Below are positions 18,282-37,302 of a stretch of DNA of 40,213 nucleotides, piece by piece (within the stretch, counting starts at the first letter, position 1; each line of letters begins with the position of its first letter). Position numbers and translations under genes: made by a program. Below the pieces are notes generated by a model that was given only the letters and a program-made list of their open reading frames with translations, was not told the origin of the DNA and did no database searches. Source of the stretch: Opitutus sp. GAS368 (lineage in GTDB: Bacteria; Verrucomicrobiota; Verrucomicrobiia; Opitutales; Opitutaceae); assembly GCA_945869845.1 (NCBI GenBank), contig CAMBRG010000019.1, positions 1 through 40,213 on the forward strand, in the 5' to 3' direction.

Positions 18282-19376
18282 TTATCTCAGGTGATAGCCG
18301 GTGCTGCGTCCGCCAGCGTCATCCTTGGCCAGAATGTTCCGTTCGATCAGGTCCGTGATGTCACGCAGCGCCGTGTCCGGGGAGCATTTGGCGATCTTAG
18401 CCCATTTTGAGGAGGTCAGTTTGCCGTCGAAACCGTCCAGAAGATGGTTGATGAGATTGCGCTGACGGTCGTTGCATCTCTCCCCTTCGTGTCGTTTCCA
18501 GAAATTCGCCTTCGTCAAAACGGCGTCGAGAATCTCATGGGATGAATTTATCGCACGCCTGAGACACGCGAGATACCATTCAAGCCAAGCGGTGATGTTC
18601 AGGTCGCCACGCTGACTGGCCTCGAGAATGTCGTAATAGGCATTTCGTTCACGCTGGATTTGCGCGGACATGCTGTAGAAACGCTGCGCGCTATTTTCAG
18701 AGCGCGCGAGGATCATGTCGGCGATGGCGCGGGCAATGCGCCCATTGCCGTCGTCGAATGGATGGATCGTAACGAACCAAAAATGCGCGAGCGCCGAGGT
18801 CAGGACCGGATCGGTTGCAGGCCCGGCGTTCAGCCACGCCAGCAACCGGTTCATTTCCGCGTTTAGCCTGTCATGACGCGGAGCCTCGTAATGAACCTGC
18901 TCCCGTCCGTAGGCACCGGAGATAACCTGCATCGGCCCTGACGCATCGGTGCGCCAGCCGCCTACGGTAATTTTCCGCATGCCGCTGCGCCCGGTCGGGA
19001 ACAGCGCCGCATGCCAGCCGAACAGCCGATCCTGATCGAGCGGCTTGTGATGGTGGCGCGTGGCGTCCAGCATCACTTCAACGATGCCCTCGACGTTGCG
19101 ATCCACCTGCGGGAGGGCCGCGATCTCGATGCCCATGCGCCGCGCGATCGAGGAGCGAACCTGCTGGGCATCCAGCTTCTGCCCTTCAATCTCACTCGTC
19201 TTGATCACGTCCTGCGTGAGCGTGGCCAAGGTCGCTTCCTCACGTAGCTGGAAGCCCAAGCCTTCCATCTTGCCGAGCAAGCGCCCCTGCGTATGCCTCG
19301 CATCACTCAGCAGCGGAGTGATGGCGGCGTGATCCCAGGTGAAGTCTGGCCAACTCTTTCGTTCGTGGATATACAT
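18282..19376 (-). CDS. Fic-family protein with N-terminal DUF4172-type domain and inhibitory motif
   Basis: Fic enzymes transfer AMP (or related groups) to hydroxyl side chains of target proteins. In 364 residues the catalytic motif is complete: HPFDDGNGRIAR (205-216) with H205 as the base. N-terminally, TSEIEG (60-65) fits the inhibitory helix motif (S/T)xxxE(G/N), so this is an autoinhibited class II Fic protein. Residues 1-90 resemble DUF4172 and the last about 80 residues look like a winged helix (SSKWAKIAKCSPDTALRDIT, DLIERNILAK), which could bind DNA. The Shine-Dalgarno GGAG is provided by a copy of the upstream repeat. The gene stands alone beside tRNA-Ser with no antitoxin gene next to it. 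The target is unknown. Confidence 0.93.
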   Translation of the reverse strand: MYIHERKSWPDFTWDHAAITPLLSDARHTQGRLLGKMEGLGFQLREEATLATLTQDVIKTSEIEGQKLDAQQVRSSIARRMGIEIAALPQVDRNVEGIVEVMLDATRHHHKPLDQDRLFGWHAALFPTGRSGMRKITVGGWRTDASGPMQVISGAYGREQVHYEAPRHDRLNAEMNRLLAWLNAGPATDPVLTSALAHFWFVTIHPFDDGNGRIARAIADMILARSENSAQRFYSMSAQIQRERNAYYDILEASQRGDLNITAWLEWYLACLRRAINSSHEILDAVLTKANFWKRHEGERCNDRQRNLINHLLDGFDGKLTSSKWAKIAKCSPDTALRDITDLIERNILAKDDAGGRSTGYHLR

Positions 19377-19813: not shown

Positions 19814-21331
19814 CTAATGTTTGGAATACTCAAGGCGGTCTATGACTTTTCCGGTGTCGTAGAGCAGAGTTTTCGGATAGTACGCTTCATCAAACGGGCG
19901 TGGCCGCGTCGGCCCGCCCCACGTTGAGCCCGGACGGCTTCCCCACGGCCGGCGCGCCCAGTGCGGACCACGCAAGGGATCTCTCGTGCGGTTCATCCAA
20001 GCGAGCAACTCGTCGAGCAACCGTTCCCGTTCAGGGGTGAGCGCCGGATCGTTGACCCGGTTCTGGAGCTCGAGGGGATCGGCCGTCAAATCGTAGAATT
20101 CATCGGTGTCGAGCAGGTTGATGACCAGTTTGTAGCGTCCGTCAAAGACACTGCGCATCGGCGCGAACGCGCCAAAACCGTCGTGGTCGATTTCAAACCG
20201 ATTGAATTCCATAAAGACAAAATCATTGGTGCGGTGGGCCGGATTGCGCATCTGGGGCAGTAGCGAACGTCCTTGGAGGATCGACGGAGCGGCCATCCCG
20301 AAGTAGTCGAGCAGCGTTGGCACCAGATCGATGTGCGATATCGGATCTTTGGATACTGCGCCCGCGGGTGCCATGCCGGGCCATCGGACGATGAACGGGA
20401 TGCGGACGATCTCTTCATACATGCACGGACCTTTGCCATAGAGACCGTGACTGCCGAACATGTCCCCGTGGTCGCTGGTGTGGATGACGAGGGCCCCGGG
20501 TGTTTCGGCATCGATTGCCGCCAGCACCCGACCGACCTGGGAGTCGCAAAAACTGTTGCACGCAAAATGGTGCGGGTGGCGCAAGTAGGCCTTGCCTCCG
20601 CTGCGAGCCAATTGGGTCTGATGGGACTCGGTATGCTGAGCCCATTCTTTTTGGGAGCGCGGTTTGTCCGAGAGTGGATCGTCCGCATTGGGCACGGGAA
20701 AAAGGAACTCGTCGAATGCGCTGGCGTAGGGTTCCGGCGCAATGAACGGATGGTGCGGTTCGTCAATCGACACGACCAACAGGAAGTCCCGATCCCGGTG
20801 GGCGCGGATAAATTCCCTCGCCCGTTCGGCTATCCGCCAGGCATGGGTGAATTCGGCGGTGATCCCGTGCGCGGCCACGTCTTTGGCCGCCAACACGCGT
20901 CGAGAAAGCGCACGCGCTTCGTCATTGGGCAATGACTCGAGGTAGTTTCGTCCGTCCATCCAATACGCCGGGTCCCAGCCGGGAGGACAGCGTCCGTCCC
21001 CAAAGTAGTCGCTGCCGTCGAGATGCCATTTACCGATGTAACCGGTCGCAAATCCGGCGTCGCTCAAGCGCTGACCGAGAGTGGGCAGATCGAGGTGGGG
21101 CGCCATGTCGTTGCCGAGGACGCCGTTGCTGTGCGGATAAAGCCCCGTAAACAGAGCCGAGCGCGCGGGCCCGCAGACCGGCGAGCACGAATAGGCACCG
21201 TTAAACCGGACACCCTCGGACGCGAGTCGGTCGATGTTCGGAGTGCCCAACGCCAACTCCGGGCGGTAGCAACCGACGCAATTGGCGCCCTGAGTATCGA
21301 TGAGGAAGAGAACGGTCTGTCGTGTAGCCAT
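19814..21331 (-). CDS. Sulfatase (family S1) without a signal peptide
   Basis: Formylglycine-dependent sulfatase of 505 residues. The metal-binding start is VLFLIDTQGANCVGCY (7-22), the FGly site CGPARSALFTG (53-63, C53 the modified residue) and GKWHLDG (about 100-106) carries the catalytic Lys/His. A second metal site is HTSDHGDMFGSHGLYGKG in the middle. The core motif is C-x-P-A-R where the other three sulfatases here have C-A-P-S-R. The protein begins directly with the first beta strand (MATRQTVLFL), so it looks cytoplasmic, unlike the three exported sulfatases of the locus. It is the last gene of the receptor-symporter-araC group on this strand, 123 bp after araC. It may act on imported sulfated sugars. 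The substrate is unknown, and no FGly-generating enzyme is in the window. Confidence 0.9.
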   Translation of the reverse strand: MATRQTVLFLIDTQGANCVGCYRPELALGTPNIDRLASEGVRFNGAYSCSPVCGPARSALFTGLYPHSNGVLGNDMAPHLDLPTLGQRLSDAGFATGYIGKWHLDGSDYFGDGRCPPGWDPAYWMDGRNYLESLPNDEARALSRRVLAAKDVAAHGITAEFTHAWRIAERAREFIRAHRDRDFLLVVSIDEPHHPFIAPEPYASAFDEFLFPVPNADDPLSDKPRSQKEWAQHTESHQTQLARSGGKAYLRHPHHFACNSFCDSQVGRVLAAIDAETPGALVIHTSDHGDMFGSHGLYGKGPCMYEEIVRIPFIVRWPGMAPAGAVSKDPISHIDLVPTLLDYFGMAAPSILQGRSLLPQMRNPAHRTNDFVFMEFNRFEIDHDGFGAFAPMRSVFDGRYKLVINLLDTDEFYDLTADPLELQNRVNDPALTPERERLLDELLAWMNRTRDPLRGPHWARRPWGSRPGSTWGGPTRPRPFDEAYYPKTLLYDTGKVIDRLEYSKH

Positions 21332-21454: not shown

Positions 21455-22516
21455 TTAGCTCGCTGCGGCGGACGTTTTGCGGCACGACTGGCGATACATG
21501 GTCGGAGTCCGTTGCATAATACGCTTGAACAAGCGGCAGAAATAAAACGGATCCTCAAAGCCGACTAAGTGGGCGATGCTTTCCACCTTGGCGTCACTTT
21601 CGGCGAGGTATTCACACGCCTTGGCAATCTTCTGTCGGTTGAAAAAAATTCGCGGGCTTTGACCGGTGTGCTTGCGGAACTGTTGGGTGAAATAGGCGTG
21701 GGACATACCGGTGCTGGCCGCCAACTCGTGGATGCTCACGTGCGCGCGGAGGTTTTTGCGCATCATTGTGAGCGTGCGCTCGATCCGGGTTGCCGTTGAC
21801 TCCTGCACGGCCGGGCGACGGCACACCTGGCCAAAGAGATCGCCGAGCAGTTGATGCATCGCCGAGGAGGCCTGCACCAAATCCTTGTAGGCTTGGCCTG
21901 CGTGGTAGATCCCGAGAATTTTTTCGAAGGTCTCGACGAAACGGAGATCCGATTGAACAGCGATGCAGGTGTTTTTTCCTCCCGTGGTCAGAATATCGTA
22001 ATACTGCTGGGCGACCGTGCCGTTGAAATGAATCCAATAGTAGGACCACGGGTCGCCCGGGTCGGCTGCGTAGGCGTGAAATTCAAACGGCCGCAGGAGC
22101 GCGATGGTACCTCGGGTGATCCGGTGCGTGCCCTGGCTGAGATCGAGCGTGCCCGCTCCATCGAGGCAGTAGAGCAGCGTGAAGGCCCAATCCCCATTGG
22201 CTCGGGAAACTTTTTGTCCCTTGGCCCGGGGGAAATAACCGAGCCGGCAAGGCAGCAAGGCCGCCGTCAGAGCCTGCCGGTTGGCCGATTCCACGACTTT
22301 GGTAGGCAGCTTGAAAATCCGTTCACCCGGAAAGTCCTCACGACCGAGCACCGAGACGAGCTTGCGGCCATTGAAACTGAACACGCGCGTCTTGTCGTCC
22401 GCCATGTAGCCCTCCAGCGAGAACGCCTTCGGATCCAAGGGCGGCAACACGCGGTTGCGCGGTTTGGCCGACGCGGCGCCAGGACGTTTGCCTTCGGTTG
22501 GCTTGCTCATGACCAT
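21455..22516 (-). CDS. AraC-family transcriptional regulator
   Basis: 353 residues from the ATG at 22516 (MVMSKPTEGK); a second ATG lies two codons on. The open frame extends further upstream, but only as an arginine-rich shadow of the symporter gene. A cupin-like sensor domain (TLLYCLDGAGTLDLSQG, RITRGTIALLRPFEFHAYAA, WSYYWIHFNG) is followed by two helix-turn-helix motifs (SIHELAASTGMSHAYFTQQF, then KVESIAHLVGFEDPFYFCRL FKR), the standard AraC/XylS output domain of about 100 residues. The sensor probably binds a sugar released from the locus' glycan. The gene begins 5 bp after the symporter stop and is probably part of its operon. Likely operator sites lie at 27219-27328. Confidence 0.94.
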   Translation of the reverse strand: MVMSKPTEGKRPGAASAKPRNRVLPPLDPKAFSLEGYMADDKTRVFSFNGRKLVSVLGREDFPGERIFKLPTKVVESANRQALTAALLPCRLGYFPRAKGQKVSRANGDWAFTLLYCLDGAGTLDLSQGTHRITRGTIALLRPFEFHAYAADPGDPWSYYWIHFNGTVAQQYYDILTTGGKNTCIAVQSDLRFVETFEKILGIYHAGQAYKDLVQASSAMHQLLGDLFGQVCRRPAVQESTATRIERTLTMMRKNLRAHVSIHELAASTGMSHAYFTQQFRKHTGQSPRIFFNRQKIAKACEYLAESDAKVESIAHLVGFEDPFYFCRLFKRIMQRTPTMYRQSCRKTSAAAS

Positions 22517-22521
22517 CGGTC

Positions 22522-24177
22522 TTAGCCGGAATGGGCGAGACGCCACAGGGAAAAATAGAGCACGACCGCGAGCACGGAGACCACCACCGAGGCCACGCGC
22601 AGGCCACGCCACGGCGTGAGATCCACGGCGACGTCGGACGGCAGGCCGTCCCGCTTCGCGCTGGCGGCGGCGGGCGCAGCGGGAGCGAACCAACCGACGA
22701 TCAACATGAATCCGCAGAGCAACAGGGTGTTGAGGGCAGCGAGATGGAGCCAGTGGATGTGCAACGAGGAAACGTCGAAGCGCCCCAACCCGAGGAACCC
22801 AACGCCCCACAGGCAGTTCAGAAAAATCGACGTGAATACGCCGAGGATCATCGACACATTGGCCGCCCAAGCCGGCACCCGTCGGCTGAGCATCCCGGTG
22901 ACGACCACGGCGAGCAGGGGCAGCTTAAAGGCGGACATCACCTGCTTCATCATCGTGAAAATTCCCTCGGAAGAGCTGCCCAGCAGGTTGGTGGTGAAAA
23001 TGGCAACGAACATGATCACGACGCAGAAGAGTTTGCCCGCTCGAACCATCTCGCGATCCGAAGCTCCGGGCCGGAGCCAGCCTCGATAAAGATCCAAACT
23101 GAACATGGTCGAAACACTGTGCAGTCCGCCGTTGAATGAGCTGATCACGGAGCCGAGGAAAACCGCGGCGAACAAACCCACCAAATAGGGCGGCAGCACG
23201 GCGTCAACCAACAGCGAATAAGCGAGGTCGCCGTTGCCAATCGCGGCGGCGCCAAACATTTCCGCCGCCATGATGCCAGGGATCACGAGGAAGAACGGCC
23301 CCAGCAGCTTGAGCCCCGCGGTGGCGAGAATTCCCTTTTGAGCCTCGGCGAAGCTCTTCGCGCCGAAGGAGCGCTGCACGATCATCTGGTTGGTGCACCA
23401 GTAGAAGAGATTGATGAAAAGCATGCCCGTGAAGAGCGTGTCGAACGGCACGTTTGAGCCTGAACCACCTACCGGGTCGATCTTCGCGGCTTGGTGCTGC
23501 AACATGCGATTCATACCCGCGAGGAAGTCGCCATCACCCAACTTGAAAAGCGCGAGCACGGGGATGAGCAGACCGCACACGAGCAGGCCGGCACCGTAGA
23601 GCGTGTCGGATAGTGCCACCGCCTTCATGCCGCCGAAGAGCACGTAGCAGGTGCCGATGATGCCGATGCTCCAAGCCATCAGTTGGAAAGAGGCGCCCTC
23701 GGAAATACCGAGCTGGGTGTGCACATGGAAGATCGTGCTCATCGCCAACCCACCGGAATAGAGGACAAACGGCAGGATGTTCAGCGCGATCGTGATAATA
23801 AACACGATACCCATGATCCGGCGCGCCGTCGCGTCGAAGCGCTGTTCGAGAAACTGCGGCACGGTCGTGATGTTGCCCGACCAGTAGCGGGGCAGAAAAT
23901 ACCACGCCATCGCGATCAATGCGAACACCGGCACGACCTCCCACGCCATCACCACCGCGCCGTGAATGGACGCCGCCCCGTTCAGACCGATGAGCTGCTC
24001 GGTGGAAAGGTTGGTCAGCAACAGCGCCCCGGCCACTTGGATCCACGGCAGTTTCCGACCGGCGAGGAAGTAGGTTTGCGCGTCGCTATTGTCCTCGCGG
24101 CGGGTCTGCCACCACGAAATCAACCCCACCACGACGGTGAAAAAAAGAAATGAGCCGATGGCGAGCGGAAGATTCAT
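22522..24177 (-). CDS. SSS-family sodium/solute symporter (SLC5-like sugar transporter)
   Basis: Inner-membrane symporter of 551 residues with about 14 hydrophobic helices. The N-terminus (VVVGLISWWQTRREDNSDAQ, TYFLAGRKLPWIQVAGALLL, TNLSTEQLIGLNG) is the SSS signature region: 'FLAGR.L.W......L..T..S...L.G'. The Na+-site region FLGSVISSFNGGLHSVSTMF is also conserved. It resembles the SglT/SGLT sugar branch more than proline or pantothenate transporters. The gene lies 66 bp after the TonB-dependent receptor and 5 bp before araC. It would take up the mono- or oligosaccharide released in the periplasm. Exact substrate not predictable. Confidence 0.94.
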   Translation of the reverse strand: MNLPLAIGSFLFFTVVVGLISWWQTRREDNSDAQTYFLAGRKLPWIQVAGALLLTNLSTEQLIGLNGAASIHGAVVMAWEVVPVFALIAMAWYFLPRYWSGNITTVPQFLEQRFDATARRIMGIVFIITIALNILPFVLYSGGLAMSTIFHVHTQLGISEGASFQLMAWSIGIIGTCYVLFGGMKAVALSDTLYGAGLLVCGLLIPVLALFKLGDGDFLAGMNRMLQHQAAKIDPVGGSGSNVPFDTLFTGMLFINLFYWCTNQMIVQRSFGAKSFAEAQKGILATAGLKLLGPFFLVIPGIMAAEMFGAAAIGNGDLAYSLLVDAVLPPYLVGLFAAVFLGSVISSFNGGLHSVSTMFSLDLYRGWLRPGASDREMVRAGKLFCVVIMFVAIFTTNLLGSSSEGIFTMMKQVMSAFKLPLLAVVVTGMLSRRVPAWAANVSMILGVFTSIFLNCLWGVGFLGLGRFDVSSLHIHWLHLAALNTLLLCGFMLIVGWFAPAAPAAASAKRDGLPSDVAVDLTPWRGLRVASVVVSVLAVVLYFSLWRLAHSG

Positions 24178-27126: not shown

Positions 27127-27133
27127 GGTAGCA

Positions 27134-27142
27134 GGGGGGGGG
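27134..27142 (-). repeat. Nine-base homopolymer (C9 on the receptor strand) just before the receptor start
   Basis: The plus strand reads nine consecutive G residues. On the coding strand the C9 run lies 8 bp before the chosen ATG, where a Shine-Dalgarno sequence would normally be. Such tracts can change length by slipped-strand mispairing and alter expression of surface proteins. That this happens here is inference. Confidence 0.7.
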
Positions 27143-27218
27143 TGACGAAACGGGGGAGAGAGACCGAGGGAAGATACGCACAGCCCAACGCATCGGACAT
27201 AGACGAATTTGGCATCAA

Positions 27219-27328
27219 TCTGGACTTTTTGAATTAGGTCTGGACTTGGCCGTGTCGCCTCGTTCTTGGCTAGACAGTGAGGCGGACTATAAGCCGCTTC
27301 TCTCAAGTCGCGTAAACAAAAAGTCCAG
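27219..27328. promoter_or_regulatory. Candidate AraC operator: 20-bp-spaced direct repeat plus inverted copy
   Basis: TCTGGACTT occurs at 27219-27227 and again at 27239-27247, exactly 20 bp apart, two helical turns and typical for AraC-family half-sites. An inverted copy lies at 27317-27328: CAAAAAGTCCAG is the perfect complement of CTGGACTTTTTG at 27220-27231. The sites are in the 446-bp divergent gap (27127-27572) between the receptor and the glycoside-hydrolase-like gene, about 93 bp before the receptor start and 245 bp before the hydrolase start. The rest of the gap shows no gene I can support. Confidence 0.65.
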
Positions 27329-27572
27329 CGAGCCATGCGGAATGTCTATACGCTCGCCGGACCGGCACGAATACTATCTCGCAGACGATGCCGGTCTCCC
27401 CAGCCGCTCAATTCGCGCCCCACCCCTCAACGCTCGCTCGCCCAAGTTTGCTCATCCCCAAAAAGCAATGTCACTCGCCCGATTGATTCTGGCTTCAAGA
27501 CCGGTCGCTTTCGCTTCGCTCTGCGTGGCCCTCGTCACACTTCACGGATAAATCACGAACGCCCATTGAAAC

Positions 27573-29495
27573 ATGAAAAATAATCGTCCCTTCTTCAACG
27601 CCCTCGCGTGCAAAGTAACCCTCACCGGGCTGATCGGCGCATGTGCACTATGGTCAATTCAGGCCGCTCCGCTCCCCAGTGCCTTTGGCGTGTGGGACCG
27701 GGGCGAGGCCCAAGATCCTCGTGAGCATCCCTACCTGCGGGGAACGGCGTGCGATGCACCGTGGGACGAAGTGGAGAAAAAGCCGGGGCTCTACGACTGG
27801 AGCGCAATGGATCGGGCAATTGAGCGAGCTCATAGGCTCAAGATTTCGCTCTACTTCTCCTTCGAGGCTGGACCGAAAACGCCGGAGTGGGTTTATGCGC
27901 AAGGTGTCCCCAAGGTGGTGACGGACAACGAGAGGCACGCCGATAAATTTCCTCACTACCCCTACTACCTCTCCCCGGAATACAAAACGTATTACCACCG
28001 TTTCCTCACGGCGGTAGCCAAACACATCCGCAGCTACTCGAAGGAAAAACAGGAGCGCATTGCCTTCATCCAAGTCAAGACGGGCTGCACCGGCGACGAA
28101 ACTCCCTATAAAGGAAAGGCGCTTAACGCAAAATACGATTTGCCGAAAAACTCCCCGCAATGGCTCGCGTTCCGGCTGGAGACCTTCGCCTTGTATGCGA
28201 AGCTCTTCGATCAAGGTCCGGATCCGAAAATCAGCCTGCTTTTCGGCGGCATTTCCGGCGACGACGAGAACGGCGGTGAAGGGCAAAACCCGGAAGAATG
28301 GAAATGGGTGACGAGCAATATCACCGGGAGCTTTGGCAGTAAAATAGGTGCACTCTCGCGCGGACATCATTTGAGCGGCGAGCGGACTGCGGTGAACACT
28401 TGGCAACGCTACCTGATCGATCCCAAAGGACCGAGCGTCTTTGCCCGGTCGGAGATGGATCAAACATGGACGAGGCCGTGGTATCAGCTCAACGTCCCGC
28501 TCAACTTTTACTGGGGTGCCATCAATGCCCTGAATTCCGGCCAAAGCATCTGGGACGTCACCAAAGTCGCGATGCAGGTGAGCAAAGAGCAGGGCTTCGA
28601 TTATTCCTTCTATTTCTTCAACAAGTATGCCGGGCAGATTTTTCCGGCGACCGCCACCGACGCGTTCTGTGCCTTGCACAAGGGGTTGGATGCCGCCGAC
28701 ACCAAGGCCTATCCCGAAGCGACGTTTGGGCCTGCCTCTCACAAAAATGTGGAGCGGATGGAGAAGATCGTTGCCGCCTATGCCAAGTATGGCGCGGCCA
28801 TCGACGACCGGAAGATCCTGGCATTCGGGCAGGTCCAACAACGGGGCGACCAAGCCGGATTCAACGACGTAGGCTGGGATATTTGGCCGGACAACTACTC
28901 GCGGTTGCTCGACCAGATCGAGCCCGATGAAACCTCAATCCCGCTCTGGCGCGTCGGCGGAACCATCACTCCGACCTCTCCTATCTACTCCCGGTTTGCC
29001 CGCGGCTTCGAGCATTCCTCGGGGAAAAATGCCCTGTATTTCAAACTCCATGAGGGCTTTTCCCAAGACACGAAGCCCAAAGTCATGTCGATTACCGTCG
29101 TCTGGTATGACGGCCAGGAAGGCTCCACTTGGAAACTCGACTACGACGCTGGCGCTCCAACCATGAAAACCGCGCTCTCAGTGACAGGCAAAGGCGACAA
29201 ACAATGGCACCATGAGGCCGTAACCCTACCCGACGCCGTGTTCCGCCATGGTGGAACCAAAGGCGCTGACTTGGCCTTGGTGAACACGGACGCGAAGGAC
29301 GATACCTTTAGTCTCATCGAAGTGCGCCGGGGAGAGCCCGAAGTTCCGGCGCTACGTCCCCCCACCGAGGTGCGAGCATTTGCCGGCTATGCAAAAGGCA
29401 CCAAGTATGGCGCAGGCGAGAAAGGCGATAAGACCGGCAAAAAAGAAAAGGGCAAAAGGAACAAGGCCGATGCCGTTGAGAAAAAGGAGAATTAA
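27573..29495 (+). CDS. Exported glycoside-hydrolase-like TIM-barrel protein, family unassigned
   Basis: 640 residues with a signal peptide (VTLTGLIGACALWSIQA, about 15-31). The pattern RGTACDAPWDEVEKKPGLYD followed by AMDRAIERAHRLKISLYFSF (56-98) is that of retaining clan GH-A/GH42-type barrels ('W..vEp..G.yd...lD..i..A...gl'). Candidate catalytic acids are E176 in VKTGCTGDET and E294 in FARSEMDQTW, each at a place expected for strands 4 and 7. A C-terminal beta-sandwich-like domain (about 465-590, ITVVWYDGQEGSTWKLDYDA) resembles a carbohydrate-binding module. The last about 33 residues are a lysine-rich tail (GEKGDKTGKKEKGKRNK). It is the first gene of the plus-strand enzyme group. I cannot name a CAZy family or substrate. 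Confidence 0.75.
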   Translation: MKNNRPFFNALACKVTLTGLIGACALWSIQAAPLPSAFGVWDRGEAQDPREHPYLRGTACDAPWDEVEKKPGLYDWSAMDRAIERAHRLKISLYFSFEAGPKTPEWVYAQGVPKVVTDNERHADKFPHYPYYLSPEYKTYYHRFLTAVAKHIRSYSKEKQERIAFIQVKTGCTGDETPYKGKALNAKYDLPKNSPQWLAFRLETFALYAKLFDQGPDPKISLLFGGISGDDENGGEGQNPEEWKWVTSNITGSFGSKIGALSRGHHLSGERTAVNTWQRYLIDPKGPSVFARSEMDQTWTRPWYQLNVPLNFYWGAINALNSGQSIWDVTKVAMQVSKEQGFDYSFYFFNKYAGQIFPATATDAFCALHKGLDAADTKAYPEATFGPASHKNVERMEKIVAAYAKYGAAIDDRKILAFGQVQQRGDQAGFNDVGWDIWPDNYSRLLDQIEPDETSIPLWRVGGTITPTSPIYSRFARGFEHSSGKNALYFKLHEGFSQDTKPKVMSITVVWYDGQEGSTWKLDYDAGAPTMKTALSVTGKGDKQWHHEAVTLPDAVFRHGGTKGADLALVNTDAKDDTFSLIEVRRGEPEVPALRPPTEVRAFAGYAKGTKYGAGEKGDKTGKKEKGKRNKADAVEKKEN

Positions 29496-29531: not shown

Positions 29532-30998
29532 ATGAAAAATCCCCTCAACATCATCACCCTGGCCGCGCTTTTGCTCACTTCGCCGGCCGCACTCCCGGCC
29601 GCCGGGCCTGCTCAGCCGCCCGCCCAACCCAACATTATCTACATCCTGCTGGATGACGCCGGCTATGGCGATTTCGGCTGTTACGGCCAAAAGACGCTGC
29701 GCACACCGAACATCGACCGCCTGGCGAGCGAAGGCATGAAGTTCACGCGGCACTACGCCGGCTCCACGGTCTGCGCCCCCTCGCGTTGCGTGCTGATGAC
29801 CGGCCTGCACACCGGCCACAGCCGCATTCGCGCCAATGGCCCCAGTCACTTGCCAGACACGGATCTCAACGTGGCCCGGTTGCTCAAGGATGCGGGCTAC
29901 CTCACCGCGTGCATCGGAAAATACGGCCTTGGCATGCCTCTGCCCCCGGATGATCCGCAGAAAAAAGGCTTCGATTATTTCTTCGGCTACGTCGACACGG
30001 CCCACGCGCACAATGGTTACCCCACCCACCTCTTTCGCAACGGGGCCAAGATGTCGTTCGACAACCGGATTATTCCCGGCTCGGAAAACAAACCCGGCAC
30101 CGGTGTGGCCCCGATCGACGGCCGGAAACACTGGGCACCCCAAATTTTGGCTGACGATGTGCAGCGGTATCTCGACGAGCGCGCAAAGGACCGCAGCAAG
30201 CCGTTCTTTCTCTATTATACGCCCATTCTTCCCCATGCGAACAACGAGGCGGACGAAACGTCCCCGCTTGGCCACGGCATGGAAGCACCCGCCGACGCCG
30301 AGTTCGCCGGGCGCGACTGGCCTCCGGTAGAAAAAGCTTTCGCCAGCGCCATGAAATTCGTCGACCGCGACGTGGGGGCAGTGATGGCGCAACTGAAGGC
30401 TCTGAACCTGGATCAGACTACGATCGTCATGTTCTCCAGCGACAACGGTCCCCATCAGGAGGGCGGTCACAAGGCGGCGTTTTTCCAGAGTAGCGGCGGC
30501 CTCACCGGGACGAAGCGCGACCTCACCGAAGGCGGCGTGCGCGTGCCGTTCATCGTGCGCTGGCCCGGCAAGATCAAACCCGGCACCGTCAACGAGCACG
30601 TCAGCGGCTTTCAGGACCTGATGCCCACGGCGGCCGACCTCGCCGGCGTCAAGATCACGGCGGAGTGCGACGGTGTTTCATTCCTGCCGACCCTGCTCGG
30701 AAACAACGCGCAACAGAAGCAGCACCCCTATCTCTATTGGAATTTCAGCGAACAAGGCGGCAAACGCTCGGTGCTCAAGTGGCCGTGGAAGCTCATTCAC
30801 CGCAATACCGCCTCCGCAGATACATCCGCCCAATCCTCCGCCAAGAAAAATAAGTCTGCTGAGGGCAAATCGCTTATCGTTGAACTGTTCAACTTGGACC
30901 GCGACTCCACCGAATCGAACAATGCCGCGAGTGCGAACCCGCGGATCGTCGAGGAACTCACCGCCTACATGCAGCAGGCCTGGCGCGATCCCAAGTAA
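29532..30998 (+). CDS. Exported sulfatase (family S1, arylsulfatase-like)
   Basis: 488 residues with a signal peptide (IITLAALLLTSPAALPAAG). Metal-binding start NIIYILLDDAGYGDFGCYG (34-52). FGly site CAPSRCVLMTGLHTGHSR (81-98), C81 modified. GKYGLGMP carries the catalytic lysine, and the second metal site is FSSDNGPHQEGGH. The YGDFGCYG plus CAPSR.....GLHTGHSR.R pattern is the AtsA/GALNS-like type (often SulfAtlas S1_16/S1_19-like, from memory). A serine/lysine-rich insert (SAQSSAKKNKSAEGKS, about 439-454) interrupts the C-terminal subdomain. It follows the glycoside-hydrolase-like gene by 36 bp and should remove sulfate esters from the locus' glycan in the periplasm or outside. Confidence 0.94.
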   Translation: MKNPLNIITLAALLLTSPAALPAAGPAQPPAQPNIIYILLDDAGYGDFGCYGQKTLRTPNIDRLASEGMKFTRHYAGSTVCAPSRCVLMTGLHTGHSRIRANGPSHLPDTDLNVARLLKDAGYLTACIGKYGLGMPLPPDDPQKKGFDYFFGYVDTAHAHNGYPTHLFRNGAKMSFDNRIIPGSENKPGTGVAPIDGRKHWAPQILADDVQRYLDERAKDRSKPFFLYYTPILPHANNEADETSPLGHGMEAPADAEFAGRDWPPVEKAFASAMKFVDRDVGAVMAQLKALNLDQTTIVMFSSDNGPHQEGGHKAAFFQSSGGLTGTKRDLTEGGVRVPFIVRWPGKIKPGTVNEHVSGFQDLMPTAADLAGVKITAECDGVSFLPTLLGNNAQQKQHPYLYWNFSEQGGKRSVLKWPWKLIHRNTASADTSAQSSAKKNKSAEGKSLIVELFNLDRDSTESNNAASANPRIVEELTAYMQQAWRDPK

Positions 30999-31056
30999 CC
31001 ACCCGGAGTCCGCAACTGGAACTCTGCCCCTAGATACCCACCCTATTTTCCGGCCC

Positions 31057-32562
31057 ATGAAATCCCCTTCACTCTTCCTCGCGCTGACCGCGCTGACCCT
31101 GACGCCTCACTTCGCTCTAGCGGCGGCAGCGGCAACCGCGGTCCGGCCCAATGTTCTGTTCATCATCGCGGACGATGCGTCCCGCCATTTCGGCGAAGCT
31201 TATGGCTGCACTTGGGTGAAGACGCCGAACATCGACCGTCTAACAAGACAGGGCTTGGTCTTTGACAATGCCTATACGCCGACGTCGAAGTGCGCACCGT
31301 CCCGCGCCGCCATCCTCACCGGGCGCAATCCGTGGCAACTCGAAGATGCGGCGAATCATCAGCCGTATTTTCCGGCAAAGTTCATGGCTTTCAGCGAAGC
31401 CCTCGCCAAGGCCGGCATCGCCTGCGGCTCCGCCGGTAAGACGTGGGGTCCGGGCGAAGCAAAGATGGCCGACGGCAGCCCGCGAAATTTCGGCCTCCGG
31501 GGGCATGGCGTCGTCACCGATCGCGAGCCGGGCGCCGCACTCGCTGCCTTTCTCAAAACCCGCGCCCCCGGTCAGCCGTTTTTTTATTGGTTCGGCAGCC
31601 ATTATCCTCACCGGGGCTACAAACCGGATTCAGGCATCGCGGCCGGCAAGAGGCCCACCGACATCGACCGCGTCCCCGCGTATTGGCCCGACAACGATGC
31701 CGTGCGCCGCGACATGCTCGACTACGCGATCGAGATCGAAGCCTACGACGCGCAGATTGGATCGCTGCTCGCCGCACTCGAGGAGAGCGGGGAAGCCAAG
31801 AACACCTTGATCATCGTCACGTCGGATCACGGCATGCCCTTTCCCCGCGTGAAGGGGCACACCTATGACGATGCGCACCACATTCCTTTCATTGTGACAT
31901 GGCCCGGGCGAGTCGGGCAGCCGGGCGGCCGAGTCGCCGACTTCATCAGTTTCATCGACCTAGCGCCGACCTTTCTCGAACTGTTCGGCATCAACGGCAC
32001 CGCGCAAGGCATGGCGCCCATGACCGGCCGCAGCTTCACCGATTTGCTGCGCGGCCAGGCGAAGGCCGACCGCGGGTTTGTGATTGTCGGGCGCGAGCGC
32101 AACGACGTGCTGGCGCGCCCCGGTTCCCCGGCGGGACTCGGGTATCCTACGCGCGCCATCCGTGCGGGCTCGCTTTTTTACGTGCAAAACTTCGCGCCCG
32201 ACCGCTGGCCGTGCGGCAACCCTGAACTTGGTTTGAAGGACACCGACGCCAGTCCCTCCAAGACCCTGCTGACCGAGCGCGGCGAGTCGGATCCGTTCTG
32301 GCAACACGCCTACGGCAAACGCACCGCCGAACAGTTATTCGACCTCAGCAAAGATCCCGATTGCGTGACCAACCTCGCCGGCCAGCCCGCTTACGCCGCG
32401 AACCTCTCCACCTTGCGGGCCCAACTGATGTCTGAACTTAAACGCCAAGAAGACCCGCGTGCACTCGGCCGGGGAGACACGTTTGACCAGTATCCTTCGC
32501 CCCGGGTCGGCGGAACGGGCGAGCAGCAGAATCGAAACGCGAAAAAGAAAGCCCAGCCGTGA
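31057..32562 (+). CDS. Exported sulfatase (N-sulfoglucosamine sulfohydrolase-like, family S1)
   Basis: 501 residues starting at the ATG at 31057. The open frame extends upstream, but only through the previous sulfatase gene. A signal peptide (SLFLALTALTLTPHFALAAA) is followed by VLFIIADDASRHFGEAYGC (33-51), then TPNIDRL, FGly site CAPSRAAILTGRNPWQLEDA (79-98, C79 modified) and the catalytic region GSAGKTWGPG. The second metal site is VTSDHGMPFPRVKGHTYDDA. The C-terminal RAIRAGSLFYVQNFAPDRWP resembles heparan N-sulfatase-like proteins (S1_8-like), but the substrate may be an O-sulfate. The C-terminus ends in a short basic tail (NRNAKKKAQP). It precedes the esterase gene by 11 bp. Confidence 0.93.
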   Translation: MKSPSLFLALTALTLTPHFALAAAAATAVRPNVLFIIADDASRHFGEAYGCTWVKTPNIDRLTRQGLVFDNAYTPTSKCAPSRAAILTGRNPWQLEDAANHQPYFPAKFMAFSEALAKAGIACGSAGKTWGPGEAKMADGSPRNFGLRGHGVVTDREPGAALAAFLKTRAPGQPFFYWFGSHYPHRGYKPDSGIAAGKRPTDIDRVPAYWPDNDAVRRDMLDYAIEIEAYDAQIGSLLAALEESGEAKNTLIIVTSDHGMPFPRVKGHTYDDAHHIPFIVTWPGRVGQPGGRVADFISFIDLAPTFLELFGINGTAQGMAPMTGRSFTDLLRGQAKADRGFVIVGRERNDVLARPGSPAGLGYPTRAIRAGSLFYVQNFAPDRWPCGNPELGLKDTDASPSKTLLTERGESDPFWQHAYGKRTAEQLFDLSKDPDCVTNLAGQPAYAANLSTLRAQLMSELKRQEDPRALGRGDTFDQYPSPRVGGTGEQQNRNAKKKAQP

Positions 32563-32573
32563 CAGGACCCACC

Positions 32574-33692
32574 ATGATGCCCCGTTTCTTTCCCCTCCTG
32601 CTCGCCGCCTGCCTCGCGTCGCCATTGCCCGCGCAAGAGGACGAGAATCAAGGGAATCGCGCGGCCGAGTTGAACAATGCCCCGGCGATTTCAAAGGACG
32701 GCCGAGTTACCTTCACGCTGACCGCGCCCAAGGCCTCGGTGGTTTCGCTAGGTGGCGATTGGGGCGGTGGCCGCACGCCCATGACCAAGGACGGCCTGGG
32801 AAACTGGACCGCCACCGTGCCCCTCCGCCCGCAGATTTATTCCTACACGTTTCTCGTCGACGGCGTGAGGACGCTCGATCCGGCCAACCCTCAGCTCAAA
32901 CTGGGTCGCGTTGCCACCGCGAGCTCGGTGGAAGTGCCGGGCACTCCGGCGATGCCGTGGGAGATGCGCGACGTGCCCCACGGCGCGATCACCACCCTCA
33001 CGTATCATTCCACCGCCGCAGGCGACCAGCGGCGGGTCACGATCTACACACCGCCCGGCTATCGCCCGGATCAGGCGACCAAGCTTCCGGTGCTCTATCT
33101 TTTGCACGGCAACGGCGAAACCGAAAGCGGCTGGGTGCACTACGGTCGGGCCCACCTGATTGCCGACAGCCTGTTGGCCGAAGGACGGATGCAGCCCATG
33201 CTCATTGTCATGCCGAAGGGCCACACCTACCCACCGGGCGAAAAGCCCACGCCCGGGGTGCGACCGACGAACGTCTTCCCGGCGGACCTCCTGGGGACCA
33301 TCGTGCCGCTCGTGGAGCAGACGTTTCGGGTGCGGACCGACCAGCCCGGCCGCGCCATCATGGGATTGTCGATGGGCGGCGCGCAGTCGCTCAGCATCGG
33401 CTTGGGTCATCTCGACCGCTTCAGTCATGTGGGCGTCTTCAGTGCCGGCGGAAGCCACGCGGCGGAGGTGTTGGCGCGGGTCGCCGCGGCTCCCGGCTCC
33501 GCCAACGAAAAGCTCAAGCTGCTCTGGATCGGCTGCGGGCGCGAGGATCGCGGCTTCGCCGGCGTGGAAAAACTGGCCGCCGATCTGACGCAGGCCGGCA
33601 TCCGGTTCACATTCCGACCGACCGCCGGGGCCCACACCTGGCTCAACTGGCGCGAGTATCTGGTCGAAACCTTGCCGCTGTTGTTCCGCTGA
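32574..33692 (+). CDS. Exported esterase with N-terminal E-set domain (CE1/esterase D-like)
   Basis: 372 residues. The ATG at 32574 is preferred: AGGA lies 5 bp upstream, though a GTG at 32559 overlaps the sulfatase stop by 4 bp and is an alternative. After the signal peptide (FFPLLLAACLASPLPAQ) comes an immunoglobulin/CBM48-like domain (VTFTLTAPKASVVSLGGDWG, NWTATVPLRPQIYSYTFLVD; about 44-100). The alpha/beta-hydrolase follows, with LPVLYLLHGNGETESGW (171-187), nucleophile S266 in IMGLSMGGAQS and H354 in GAHTWLNWREYL. The order matches feruloyl/acetyl-xylan esterase-type CE1 proteins and enterochelin-esterase relatives. In this locus it probably removes acyl groups from the glycan. The ester cleaved is unknown. 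Confidence 0.9.
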   Translation: MMPRFFPLLLAACLASPLPAQEDENQGNRAAELNNAPAISKDGRVTFTLTAPKASVVSLGGDWGGGRTPMTKDGLGNWTATVPLRPQIYSYTFLVDGVRTLDPANPQLKLGRVATASSVEVPGTPAMPWEMRDVPHGAITTLTYHSTAAGDQRRVTIYTPPGYRPDQATKLPVLYLLHGNGETESGWVHYGRAHLIADSLLAEGRMQPMLIVMPKGHTYPPGEKPTPGVRPTNVFPADLLGTIVPLVEQTFRVRTDQPGRAIMGLSMGGAQSLSIGLGHLDRFSHVGVFSAGGSHAAEVLARVAAAPGSANEKLKLLWIGCGREDRGFAGVEKLAADLTQAGIRFTFRPTAGAHTWLNWREYLVETLPLLFR

Positions 33693-33716: not shown

Positions 33717-35807
33717 ATGCACCATCCCATGTTCCGAATTCTGGCGGCCCTGATCGGCTTCGCCCTCGCCCGGATCGCCGGCGCCGCCACGCCTGCGGTG
33801 GAGCATGTCCCCGGTGGAGCCGAGTTTTCCCTGCGTTGGGGAACCGCAGCGCACATCGCCGATGTCACGTTCTCCCTTCGCGTCAACGGCCAGTGGATTC
33901 ACGGCGAGGCTTTTCCCCGCCGTGAATGGACGTCCGCTTCCGGCCGACACGTGCTGCGCTGCTCCGGCCTGCCCCCGCTGGAGGAGTTTGTCCTGACGAT
34001 CGAGACCGCCGCTGATCGCCCCTATGTGATCGTGAACGCGGGACTCACCGCCCGCGATCAATTCGAGTTGGGCGGCGTGCGCGTGCTGACCCGCAAAGGC
34101 GAGGCCGCCAATCTCCCCGTCACCCGGGCCGATCCGGGTTGGACGGTTTTCTCCGAAGCTCTGCACTCCCCCGACCACGGGCGGATCTTCACGGTCGCGC
34201 AGATGGCCGACCTGAAGCCCGGCCGGCGAGGCGATCCACGCAACGCCTATTGGGTGTCGACGCTTCAGCACGACGTGAAGAACCAGACCTATGCTTTTGC
34301 CGCATTGAAAGGCGAACTCTGGCCGACCTCCTTCGAGTGGCGGACCTCCGCGCAGGGAGCGCTGGACGTCTCCCACCGCAGCGGCAGTCCCGAGGGACTC
34401 GAGAAGATTCTCGTCAAGTCGGGCCGGGCAATCGCGGTGGATCCCGTGCTCGTGGGATTCTGGGAAAACCGGCGGCCGACCCAGGTGCTGGCCGAGGTGG
34501 GACGGATCATGGGAGAAAGCCTCCGGATGGGACGCCCGATGAAGCCTATCGAACCCGGCTGGAGCACTTGGCACTCGTATGGCCGCGAAATCACCGCCGA
34601 CGGCGTGATGAGAGCGGCGCGGTTCATGCGGGACGAACTCTACGACGCCGGCTATCGCTACATCCAACTCGACGGCGGTTGGTGGACCGTGCCGGGCTCG
34701 TATGTGGTGAACACGGATTTTCCCCGCGGCATCCGCGATCTCTCGAATCAGATCACCGACCTCGGCCTGAAGTTCGGGCTCCACATCAGTCCGTTGCGGG
34801 TGAATCCCACCGACCCCTATTGGAAAAATCATCCCGACTGGTTGGTCTCGCCTTACAACAAGAAGCCGATCGATCCGCACGACGCCGAGATGATGACCTC
34901 GCTGGGCATGATGTATCTCGACGGCAGCCATCCCGACGTGCCGCCCTATCTGGCCGGACAGTTCAAGCAGATGGTCGAGGACTACAAGCCGACCTTCATG
35001 AAGTGGGACCATCACTACGGCGGCCTCGAGGAGGCGCCGCGGCACGATCCCACCATGACCGGCCTCCAGGCGCACAACCGGGCGGTGCGCATGATCCGCG
35101 CGGCCCTGCCGGCGGATCTCGTCGTCACGCGGAGCATGGGCTGGCTCTTCGGCGCGATCGAGTGCTACGACGCCGTGCGGATCGGCAACGACATCAACCA
35201 CACGGGCGTCCGGAGCGCGGCCGAGCCGTATGCGAATATCACTTACGGCCAGACCACCGGCTCGATCGCCGAGGTGCCGTTGGGCCGCGACTTCCAGGGC
35301 CTGATCCGCTTCGCCCGGGCGGCGGCGCAAAATTACTACATTCATAACCACATCGCGATCTGCGACCCCGACGCCTTCTTCACCTCGCCGCAATACACGC
35401 TGGAAGAAGCGCGCTGCCATATCACCGTGCAGGCGCTGATGGGCGGCTTTCTTTTCGGCGGCGACCGCATCGAGTCGCTCCCGAAAGATCGCCTCGACCT
35501 GTATCGCCACAAGCCGTTGCTCGACGTGTGGCGCTCCGGCAAGCACGCGGTGCCGCTCGATCTCTTTTCCGGCGCCGACATCCCCCGGATCTGGAAGCTC
35601 GAATTACCCGACCGCACCGTGTTCGGATTTTTCAACTGGATCGATGCAGCCGTCGAATCGACATGGTCCCTGCGCGACCTAGAACTCGGCACCGGGACCT
35701 ACCGGCTCACCGATCTTTGGAGCGGACAGCCGGTCGCGCTGGGCCAAAGCGGCCTGACTCTGCCCATGGCGCCGCATACGGTGCGATTGATCGAATTCCG
35801 CCAATGA
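33717..35807 (+). CDS. Exported alpha-galactosidase-like glycoside hydrolase (GH36/clan GH-D)
   Basis: 696 residues with a signal peptide (FRILAALIGFALARIAGAA). The N-terminal half (about 25-270) is a beta-sandwich supersandwich-like domain. The barrel begins EPGWSTWHSYGREITADGV (279-297), with RYIQLDGGW (314-322). The nucleophile is D431 in FMKWDHHYGG and the acid/base D492 in AVRIGNDINH, matching the clan GH-D pattern KWD...R.(G/S).D. A C-terminal beta domain (FGFFNWIDAAVESTWSLRDL, VALGQSGLTLPMAPHTVRLI) closes it. An alpha-galactosidase/alpha-N-acetylgalactosaminidase activity is expected from the family, but GH27, GH31-like and GH97 relatives share parts of this pattern. It follows the esterase by 24 bp. 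Confidence 0.88.
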   Translation: MHHPMFRILAALIGFALARIAGAATPAVEHVPGGAEFSLRWGTAAHIADVTFSLRVNGQWIHGEAFPRREWTSASGRHVLRCSGLPPLEEFVLTIETAADRPYVIVNAGLTARDQFELGGVRVLTRKGEAANLPVTRADPGWTVFSEALHSPDHGRIFTVAQMADLKPGRRGDPRNAYWVSTLQHDVKNQTYAFAALKGELWPTSFEWRTSAQGALDVSHRSGSPEGLEKILVKSGRAIAVDPVLVGFWENRRPTQVLAEVGRIMGESLRMGRPMKPIEPGWSTWHSYGREITADGVMRAARFMRDELYDAGYRYIQLDGGWWTVPGSYVVNTDFPRGIRDLSNQITDLGLKFGLHISPLRVNPTDPYWKNHPDWLVSPYNKKPIDPHDAEMMTSLGMMYLDGSHPDVPPYLAGQFKQMVEDYKPTFMKWDHHYGGLEEAPRHDPTMTGLQAHNRAVRMIRAALPADLVVTRSMGWLFGAIECYDAVRIGNDINHTGVRSAAEPYANITYGQTTGSIAEVPLGRDFQGLIRFARAAAQNYYIHNHIAICDPDAFFTSPQYTLEEARCHITVQALMGGFLFGGDRIESLPKDRLDLYRHKPLLDVWRSGKHAVPLDLFSGADIPRIWKLELPDRTVFGFFNWIDAAVESTWSLRDLELGTGTYRLTDLWSGQPVALGQSGLTLPMAPHTVRLIEFRQ

Positions 35808-35853: not shown

Positions 35854-37302
35854 ATGAAATCCCTCCTCCGTCTAATTTTCGTCGTCGCGGCGGCCGTGTC
35901 CGCCCGGGCCGAGCGGCCGAACATTTTGCTCGTACTTTCCGACGATCACAGCGTCCCGCATCTCGGAGTTTACGGCGACGTCAACTGTCGGCGTCTGGCC
36001 TTGACCCCCCACCTCGACGCCTTTGCGGCCCAGGGCATGCGTTTCAACCGCGCCTTCACCGCGGCGCCGCAATGCGCACCTTCCCGCACCGCGATGTTTG
36101 CGGGTCGCTCGCCGATCGGGATTGCCGCCACGCGTTTCGCCCAGCCGGCGCGCGCGGGCACGCCCTTCGTGACCGATCTGCTGCGCGCCGCCGGATACTG
36201 GGTGGGGTTGGACGGGCGGCATCAGCACCTCGAAGGGCAGATCAACGATCCGGCCCATGTGGTGGTGGCGCTGGAGGAGCAAGGCGTGCGCGGACCGCAG
36301 TTTGAGGCGCGGTTCGATCATTTTGTGCGAAGCGCTCGGACCAAAGGCGACGCGCTGCCCAAGGTGCCCGCAATGTTCGGATCCATCCTCGACAAAGTGC
36401 CGGCCGGAAAACCCTTCTTTCTCTATTTCGGCTTCAACCAACCCCACCGCCCCTGGGGCGACGACCACGAAGGGATTGATCCCGCGCAGCTGAAACTTCC
36501 GGCCGACTGGCCGGACCTGCCGGAAGTGCGGCTCGACTACGCCCGCTACCTGGCGGAAGTCCGCGATTTGGATACGGGCTTTGGCCTGATCATGCAGGTG
36601 CTCGAACAACGCGGACTGGCGGAGAACACTCTGGTGCTCTTTATCGGCGACAACGGCGAAGCGTTGCTGCGCGGCAAGGGCACGCTCTTTACCCGCGGCC
36701 TGAATGTGCCGCTGCTGGTGCGTTGGCCGGGCAAGATTCGCGGCGGGAGCGTGAGCGAAGCGTTGATCAGCGGCGAGGATATCGCCCCGACCCTCCTGAG
36801 CGCGGTGGGCGTTGCGGCGGACCAGGGGATGACCGGCCGCGATTTCAAGCCGCTGCTGTTGGGGCAGCCGTTCACCCCGCGCGAGCAGATCTTTGCCGAG
36901 CGGGGCTGGCACTTCGGCCCTATCACGCGCACCGATGGCTTCGACCTGTCCCGCTCCGTCGTCACGCCGCGCTACAACTTCATTTACAATGCCATTCCCG
37001 AGCGCAGCTATACCCCGGTGGATATGGCGACGCGAAACGTGGCATGGGAAGCGATCAAGGCCGCGCACAAAGCGGGCCGCCTGAGCGCCGAACATGCGCG
37101 GATGTATTTTCAGAATCCCCGGCCCATATTCGAACTCTACGACTTGGACAACGACCCCTTTCAGCTCAGCAATCTCGCCGGGCAAGACGCCGTCAGCGTG
37201 ATCGAGCGGGACCTGCGCGAACGCCTTGATCGCTGGATGGTGAGCGAGGGCGACTACGTGCCCCTGCCGGTCCATGCGTTTCAAAACCGGGAAAAACCGT
37301 GA
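35854..37302 (+). CDS. Exported sulfatase (family S1)
   Basis: 482 residues with a signal peptide (SLLRLIFVVAAAVSARAE). Metal-binding start PNILLVLSDDHSVPHLGVYG (22-41), FGly site CAPSRTAMFAGRSPIGIA (74-91, C74 modified) and the second metal site FIGDNGEALLRGKGTLFTRG. GLDGRHQHLEG replaces the usual GKWHLG, so the catalytic lysine position is occupied by Arg or lies elsewhere. FGFNQPHRPW supplies the substrate-binding His/Arg. The C-terminus has the standard ELYDLDNDPFQLSNLAGQ sulfatase end. It is the last gene of the plus-strand enzyme group, 46 bp after the alpha-galactosidase-like gene. It differs clearly from the other three sulfatases, implying another sulfate position. Confidence 0.92.
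   Translation: MKSLLRLIFVVAAAVSARAERPNILLVLSDDHSVPHLGVYGDVNCRRLALTPHLDAFAAQGMRFNRAFTAAPQCAPSRTAMFAGRSPIGIAATRFAQPARAGTPFVTDLLRAAGYWVGLDGRHQHLEGQINDPAHVVVALEEQGVRGPQFEARFDHFVRSARTKGDALPKVPAMFGSILDKVPAGKPFFLYFGFNQPHRPWGDDHEGIDPAQLKLPADWPDLPEVRLDYARYLAEVRDLDTGFGLIMQVLEQRGLAENTLVLFIGDNGEALLRGKGTLFTRGLNVPLLVRWPGKIRGGSVSEALISGEDIAPTLLSAVGVAADQGMTGRDFKPLLLGQPFTPREQIFAERGWHFGPITRTDGFDLSRSVVTPRYNFIYNAIPERSYTPVDMATRNVAWEAIKAAHKAGRLSAEHARMYFQNPRPIFELYDLDNDPFQLSNLAGQDAVSVIERDLRERLDRWMVSEGDYVPLPVHAFQNREKP

Follow-up and report, generated by a model that had tools for sequence, protein, structure and literature searches.

An exported glycoside-hydrolase-like protein from a sulfatase-rich Opitutus locus, member of a probable new family of galactan hydrolases

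GH42 and GH35 are two separate CAZy families, and the GH14 family comprises the beta-amylases, of which the soybean enzyme presumably uses Glu186 and Glu380 as its catalytic pair (taken from PDB titles and Gln variants). That a distant relative of GH42 can occur in carrageenan loci is shown by the GH167 enzymes, which release beta-neocarrabiose and are described, in excerpts from two reports, as proteins of 808 residues with a helical N-terminal part, a barrel domain A, an alpha/beta domain B, a beta-domain C and the glutamates Glu288/Glu473 (PMC6923384, PMC6952198). The GH168 endo-fucanase FunA has an essential Asp/Glu pair, D206 and E264, according to an excerpt of its report (PMC7401878). 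Excerpts of further reports describe sulfated polysaccharides in freshwater Cladophora (PMC5694217) and many sulfatases of unknown target in freshwater Verrucomicrobia (PMC5615132).

In this study P0001, a protein of Opitutus sp. GAS368 encoded within a stretch of 40,213 nucleotides (the window), was compared with these systems. Like the GH167 enzymes, it appears to be a distant relative of GH42 in a sulfated-galactan locus with sulfatases, but going by the excerpted descriptions it is set apart from them by its length of 640 residues, the lack of a domain B and a putative D175/E294 pair in place of Glu/Glu (PMC6923384, PMC6952198). Its Asp/Glu pair resembles that of GH168, but the substrate of GH168, again by excerpted description, is fucan (PMC7401878). 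GH14 is close in fold, and its beta4-loop acid pairs with D175 in a weak profile match, but the context of GH14 is starch, not galactan. GH42 has the barrel opening (residues 61-176) and the galactose context in common with P0001, but the match covers under a third of the GH42 model and the Asn-Glu at beta4 is missing. GH35 enzymes of the Bgl35A type (4d1i, 8faa), its best Foldseek matches, share the barrel plus beta-domain. With moderate confidence, P0001 is proposed to be an exported glycoside hydrolase, most likely cutting sulfated galactan together with sulfatases and a GH36-like enzyme, with D175 as donor and E294 as nucleophile or base.

Table 1. Features of P0001 and its neighbours in the window
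Feature	Position	Strand	Evidence
P0001, exported glycoside-hydrolase-like protein, 640 aa	27573..29495	+	ORF, relatives, predicted fold, codon comparison
Signal peptide, residues 1-31	27573..27665	+	cleavage after I-Q-A placed by eye; N-termini of relatives
Predicted (beta/alpha)8 barrel and trailing helices, residues 35-430	27675..28862	+	models, fold searches
D175 codon, invariant acid on beta4 loop, proposed proton donor	28095..28097	+	79/79 rows with a letter; GH14 pairing
E176 codon, acid of the original prediction, conserved in close clade only	28098..28100	+	55/55 close, 7/24 divergent rows
E294 codon, strand beta7, proposed nucleophile or base	28452..28454	+	79/80 rows, model
Predicted all-beta C-terminal domain, residues 442-586	28896..29330	+	AlphaFold2 model
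Lysine-rich tail, residues 613-640	29409..29492	+	pLDDT <50
Sulfatase (PF00884), C-A-P-S-R site	29532..30998	+	Pfam, motif
Sulfatase (PF00884), C-A-P-S-R site	31057..32562	+	start by eye at residue 129 of ORF 30673-32562
Esterase-like protein (PF00756), G-L-S-M-G	32559..33692	+	Pfam, motif
GH36-like protein (PF02065 Melibiase over cut-off), K-W-D motif	33717..35807	+	Pfam, motif
Sulfatase (PF00884), C-A-P-S-R site, ends run	35854..37302	+	Pfam, motif
TonB-dependent receptor-like protein, divergent from P0001	24244..27336	-	Plug domain scores slightly below cut-off; ORF as called probably starts too far upstream
Sodium:solute symporter (PF00474; NF007790 over cut-off)	22522..24177	-	Pfam, NCBIfam
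AraC-type regulator (PF12833, PF02311)	21455..22870	-	Pfam
Sulfatase (PF00884), C-G-P-A-R site	19814..21331	-	Pfam, motif

The ORF of P0001 is a real, conserved coding gene. Against the nearest relatives, in loci L002 and L003, differences at codon positions 1/2/3 amount to 69/51/215 over 624 codons and 80/51/283 over 637 codons, and synonymous changes exceed non-synonymous ones. The N-terminus agrees with the signal peptide of the original prediction: residues 15-28 are hydrophobic and precede a cleavage site between I-Q-A and A, and a comparable N-terminus is found in most relatives, all as judged by eye. A stop-poor antisense ORF of 399 residues lies beneath the gene (27654-28853, minus strand). 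The codon-registered antisense frame is interrupted in three of four relatives checked (2, 11 and 4 stops) and free of stops in L006; codon usage is the simplest account of this frame, and the ORF is not needed.

P0001 heads a run of six closely packed genes, at most about 60 bases apart, as had been predicted for the first gene of an operon, and is followed by two sulfatases, the esterase-like protein, the GH36-like protein and a third sulfatase. The operator said to adjoin it was not recovered, since the inverted repeats at positions 27100-27600 were all short, had spacers of at least 18 nt and were unconvincing. First place had also been read as marking the key backbone-cleaving enzyme. Position says nothing about role, and that reading stays a suggestion, for which a complete locus gives a better argument (see below). 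The C-x-[PA]-x-R site is kept in all four window sulfatases, and the genome has genes for three FGE-type proteins; its galK sits away from the P0001 locus. Elsewhere in the window, a second receptor-like gene (37743-40211, minus strand) is cut by the window end, is weakly like the first and matches no Pfam or NCBIfam model, and the protein of 18282-19376 (minus strand) is Fic-like, with H-P-F-D-D-G-N-G-R, which we take to be the Fic motif.

The claim that P0001 fits no recognised family held when tested through Pfam, NCBIfam and PDB sequences. In hmmscan, no Pfam or NCBIfam family scored over its cut-off, and a clear hit to an established family did not occur. The nearest Pfam model was PF02449 (GH42), with 20.3 bits against a cut-off of 21 over residues 63-152. 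That stretch reached 22.3 bits and passed the cut-off when the genome was searched, and of 73 family members 62 give E 0.1 or lower against PF02449, the lowest value being 1.1e-09. GH42 domains other than PF02449 gave no match to P0001 at E 1, so that the test of the trimerisation and C-terminal domains was negative, and in the predicted model the alpha/beta domain after the barrel is absent. GH35 models stayed below cut-off on P0001 (NF051902, 13.7 versus 500 bits), PF01301 (GH35) had no match in the window's genome, and PF01373 (GH14) had none there at E 0.001 and none for P0001. As named families GH42, GH35 and GH10 were rejected, the Pfam, NCBIfam and PDB sequence searches having given only partial matches to them at the barrel opening.

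In profile comparisons, the P0001 group (alignment A1, 73 of 80 rows, the seven dropped being incomplete or repeat fetches of a gene already included) matched GH42 (A2, 14 of the 20 loci L069-L088) at 95.9% and E 6e-09, over residues 61-176 only. The match to GH35 (A3, ten loci) was 88.6% with E 3e-06, and that to GH14 (A5, three loci plus soybean beta-amylase) 54.5% with E 1e-04; four GH35-like rows (A4) stood outside these comparisons. As yardsticks, GH42 matched GH35 at 97.3% and E 2e-11 across most of the barrel, and GH14 at 93.9%. Judged by the GH42-GH35 yardstick, the P0001 group thus stands no closer to GH42 than GH35 does. Seen through Pfam, NCBIfam and PDB sequences, P0001 is a member of a probable new galactan-hydrolase family. 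It is possible, if somewhat doubtful, that the family already has a CAZy number. A search of titles and abstract openings found no publication on it, which is no proof of absence.

The two glutamates put forward as catalytic in the original prediction, E176 and E294, both exist. Conservation was assessed over 80 rows, some of them one gene under two locus ids, which were separated at 500 bits into 56 close and 24 divergent rows. E294, on the strand 289-295, is kept in 55 close and all 24 divergent rows. E176 is kept in all 55 close rows with a letter at the site, but only in 7 of the divergent rows, the other 17 having Gly, Arg or Lys. D175 is found in each of the 79 rows that have a residue there, within the common beta4-loop motif G-x-T-G-D-x3-Y, and both D175 and E294 are retained down to about 27-30% identity. 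In the GH14 alignment, a weak match at 54.5%, D175 pairs with the Glu of G-P-x-G-E-L-R-Y-P-S-Y, so that the G-x-x-G-E loop of GH14 lies opposite the G-x-x-G-D of the family. Because D175 is invariant and pairs with GH14 whereas E176 varies, D175 and E294 appear the better pair. These alignments favour D175 over E176 as the candidate acid of the beta4 loop, and only E294 of the predicted glutamates keeps its place. D175 would serve as proton donor and E294, on beta7, as nucleophile or base. A copy from a Planctomycete MAG (L017:108-1754) has Val at the E294 site, by natural inactivation or sequence error.

The predicted clan GH-A style of the barrel opening stood in part. The opening is GH42/GH35-like at residues 63-152, a (beta/alpha)8 barrel is predicted, and E294 corresponds by position to the nucleophile Glu at the end of beta7, but the Asn-Glu of the clan is absent from beta4. 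When the family is aligned with the GH42 profile or with the GH35 profile, the Glu of this dipeptide has a gap opposite it, and none of the 73 rows has an Asn-Glu in the beta4 stretch. Given this gap, the alignments do not support plain clan GH-A membership. This bears on the possibility that P0001 is an ordinary but divergent, retaining clan GH-A beta-galactosidase, in or beside GH42, with E176 as acid/base and D175 as a structural residue. Such an enzyme would agree with the GH42 profile match, with the many members matching PF02449 and the 22.3-bit score of P0001 itself, and with the invariance of E176 within the close clade. However, the GH42 match stops before the catalytic residues, the Asn-Glu is without counterpart, and E176 is replaced in most divergent rows, which leaves this reading unlikely, if worth weighing.

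An AlphaFold2 model built with the 73 aligned members had a mean pLDDT of 87.3 and a pTM of 0.87 for the whole protein, and 89.5 and 0.88 for the barrel alone. A (beta/alpha)8 barrel was predicted, in line with the original expectation and not the barrel-less fold that would have contradicted it, with eight strands starting at residues 39, 55, 92, 163, 221, 254, 289 and 326. Helices then continue to about residue 427, and about 10 strands at 442-586 would form the all-beta C-terminal domain that had been foreseen. The best Foldseek matches were GH35 beta-galactosidases (E 2.4e-10 for the whole protein, 7.6e-09 for the barrel), with TM-scores of only 0.3-0.5. The top VIA row for the whole protein was the GH14 beta-amylase 1vep (Z 15.2, rmsd 3.8, 290 aligned); with the barrel alone, 1vep (Z 18.9, rmsd 3.8, 285 aligned) was tied with others. 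Glucosaminidases, GH35, GH5 and GH42 lie within about 3 Z units of 1vep, and GH42 matches the barrel with Z up to 16.6, so in these model-based comparisons no one family stands out. GH167 and GH168 were not recognised among the 50 fold-match rows listed, which excludes neither. A bolder suggestion, decidedly unlikely in this form, is a new family in which the barrel opens like that of GH42/GH35 and the acid loop resembles that of GH14, with Asp for Glu. It would act on sulfated galactans across several bacterial phyla, perhaps with inversion, and bridge clan GH-A and the inverting beta-amylases.

Gene company was scored in 52 loci, the window included. A sulfatase is present in 28, a GH36-like gene in 15 and GalK/GalT/GalM in 6, and 17 loci, some of them short contigs, have none of the scored partners. 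For the 20 loci of at least 20 kb the corresponding numbers are 12, 9, 4 and 5. The fullest locus, of about 40 kb, belongs to G426, a Flavobacterium relative (L014). It holds SusC/SusD, a hybrid two-component regulator, a symporter, GalM twice, GalK, GalT, three sulfatases, two GH36-like genes and four copies of the P0001 family (30-60% identical mutually, 32-68% to P0001), together with a six-hairpin glycosidase-like gene below cut-off and one protein with a secretion tail. No GH16, GH50, GH86, GH2, GH35 or GH53 model scored over cut-off among the proteins scanned in this locus. The backbone role is better argued from here, because in this complete related locus no candidate for a beta-galactan hydrolase was seen other than the P0001 family. 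In G426, G427 and G429, the sole galK and galT matches of each genome lie in the locus or at its edge, and the chance of a given gene falling within 10 kb is below 1% for genomes of 2-3 Mb; the three have a history in common and do not test this placement independently. The galK match of G430 lies outside the locus, and G428 has none.

A galactan bearing sulfate and alpha-galactose, cut by the P0001 family, is the simplest account of this company. Against it stand the 17 loci without any scored partner, five of them at least 20 kb long, the position of galK outside the locus in the window's genome and in G430, and the missing match in G428. We infer that P0001 is an active hydrolase in which D175 and E294 take part in catalysis, and the neighbours suggest substrate and linkage; beta-specificity would follow from the GH42/GH35 likeness and from the G426 locus, where no further beta-galactanase model scored. 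The exported P0001 would cut galactosidic, probably beta-galactosidic, linkages in sulfated galactan, the sulfatases and the GH36-like alpha-galactosidase would work alongside it, and the freed galactose would enter the Leloir pathway. If so, a family that has no name in Pfam or NCBIfam performs galactan cutting in sulfated-galactan loci of five phyla, and a defined enzyme makes carbon flow from freshwater sulfated polysaccharides testable; the D175/E294 pair poses a clear mechanistic question.

The polymer could be a different sulfated one, such as fucan or arabinogalactan, with the galactose genes serving side chains. Excerpts of two reports, on the Asp/Glu pair of the GH168 endo-fucanases (PMC7401878) and on a sulfated xylogalactoarabinan in freshwater Cladophora (PMC5694217), are consistent with this, but the sugar-metabolism genes identified among the neighbours scanned, which are not all neighbours, are galactose genes, and such a substrate seems improbable. 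That P0001 is a non-catalytic carbohydrate-binding protein or pseudo-enzyme with a GH barrel, as the presence of several copies in one locus, a number of them with Ig-like or fn3 fusions, and the E294V copy of L017 might suggest, is very improbable, considering that D175 and E294 persist to such low identity and that the G426 locus would then be without a backbone enzyme.

Relatives of P0001 were found in 51 loci by a scan of the genome collection, the best with 83% identity over nearly full length, and span at least five phyla (Verrucomicrobiota, Bacteroidota, Acidobacteriota, Planctomycetota and Sumerlaeota). Within the window's phylum, 12 of 387 genomes have a match at E 1e-5, which in five of the 12 is no more than a weak local one (24-38% identity), and G426 itself is the only one of 199 genomes in its family to match at E 1e-20; the gene is thus sporadic. 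The family tree requires 13 changes of group label against a minimum of 5, for which transfer may be one reading, paralogues and binning errors being others. No match was found in the plasmid collection at E 0.01. Divergent paralogues often lie alongside family members, and 20 of the 52 loci have at least two family ORFs, a count that takes in L048 and L050, where a single gene seems split by frame breaks.

In the clade of L032 and L036-L042, Verrucomicrobiota except for L041 (Acidobacteriota), the fetched stretches contain no sulfatase, GH36-like or galactose genes, and these members may have another role. In some Verrucomicrobiota a GFO/IDH/MocA-type oxidoreductase adjoins the family gene (L002:12010-13446, L006:14348, L033:5165). 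The member on L013, a contig titled Rhizobium, falls inside the Flavobacterium group of the tree, probably through a binning or naming error. Giant members of 1107-1482 residues (L020:12059-16267, L022:12014-15334, L149:14895-19340) are fused to Ig-like, fn3 or glycine-rich parts and are perhaps cell-surface forms. According to the record titles, several loci come from lakes, ponds or groundwater.
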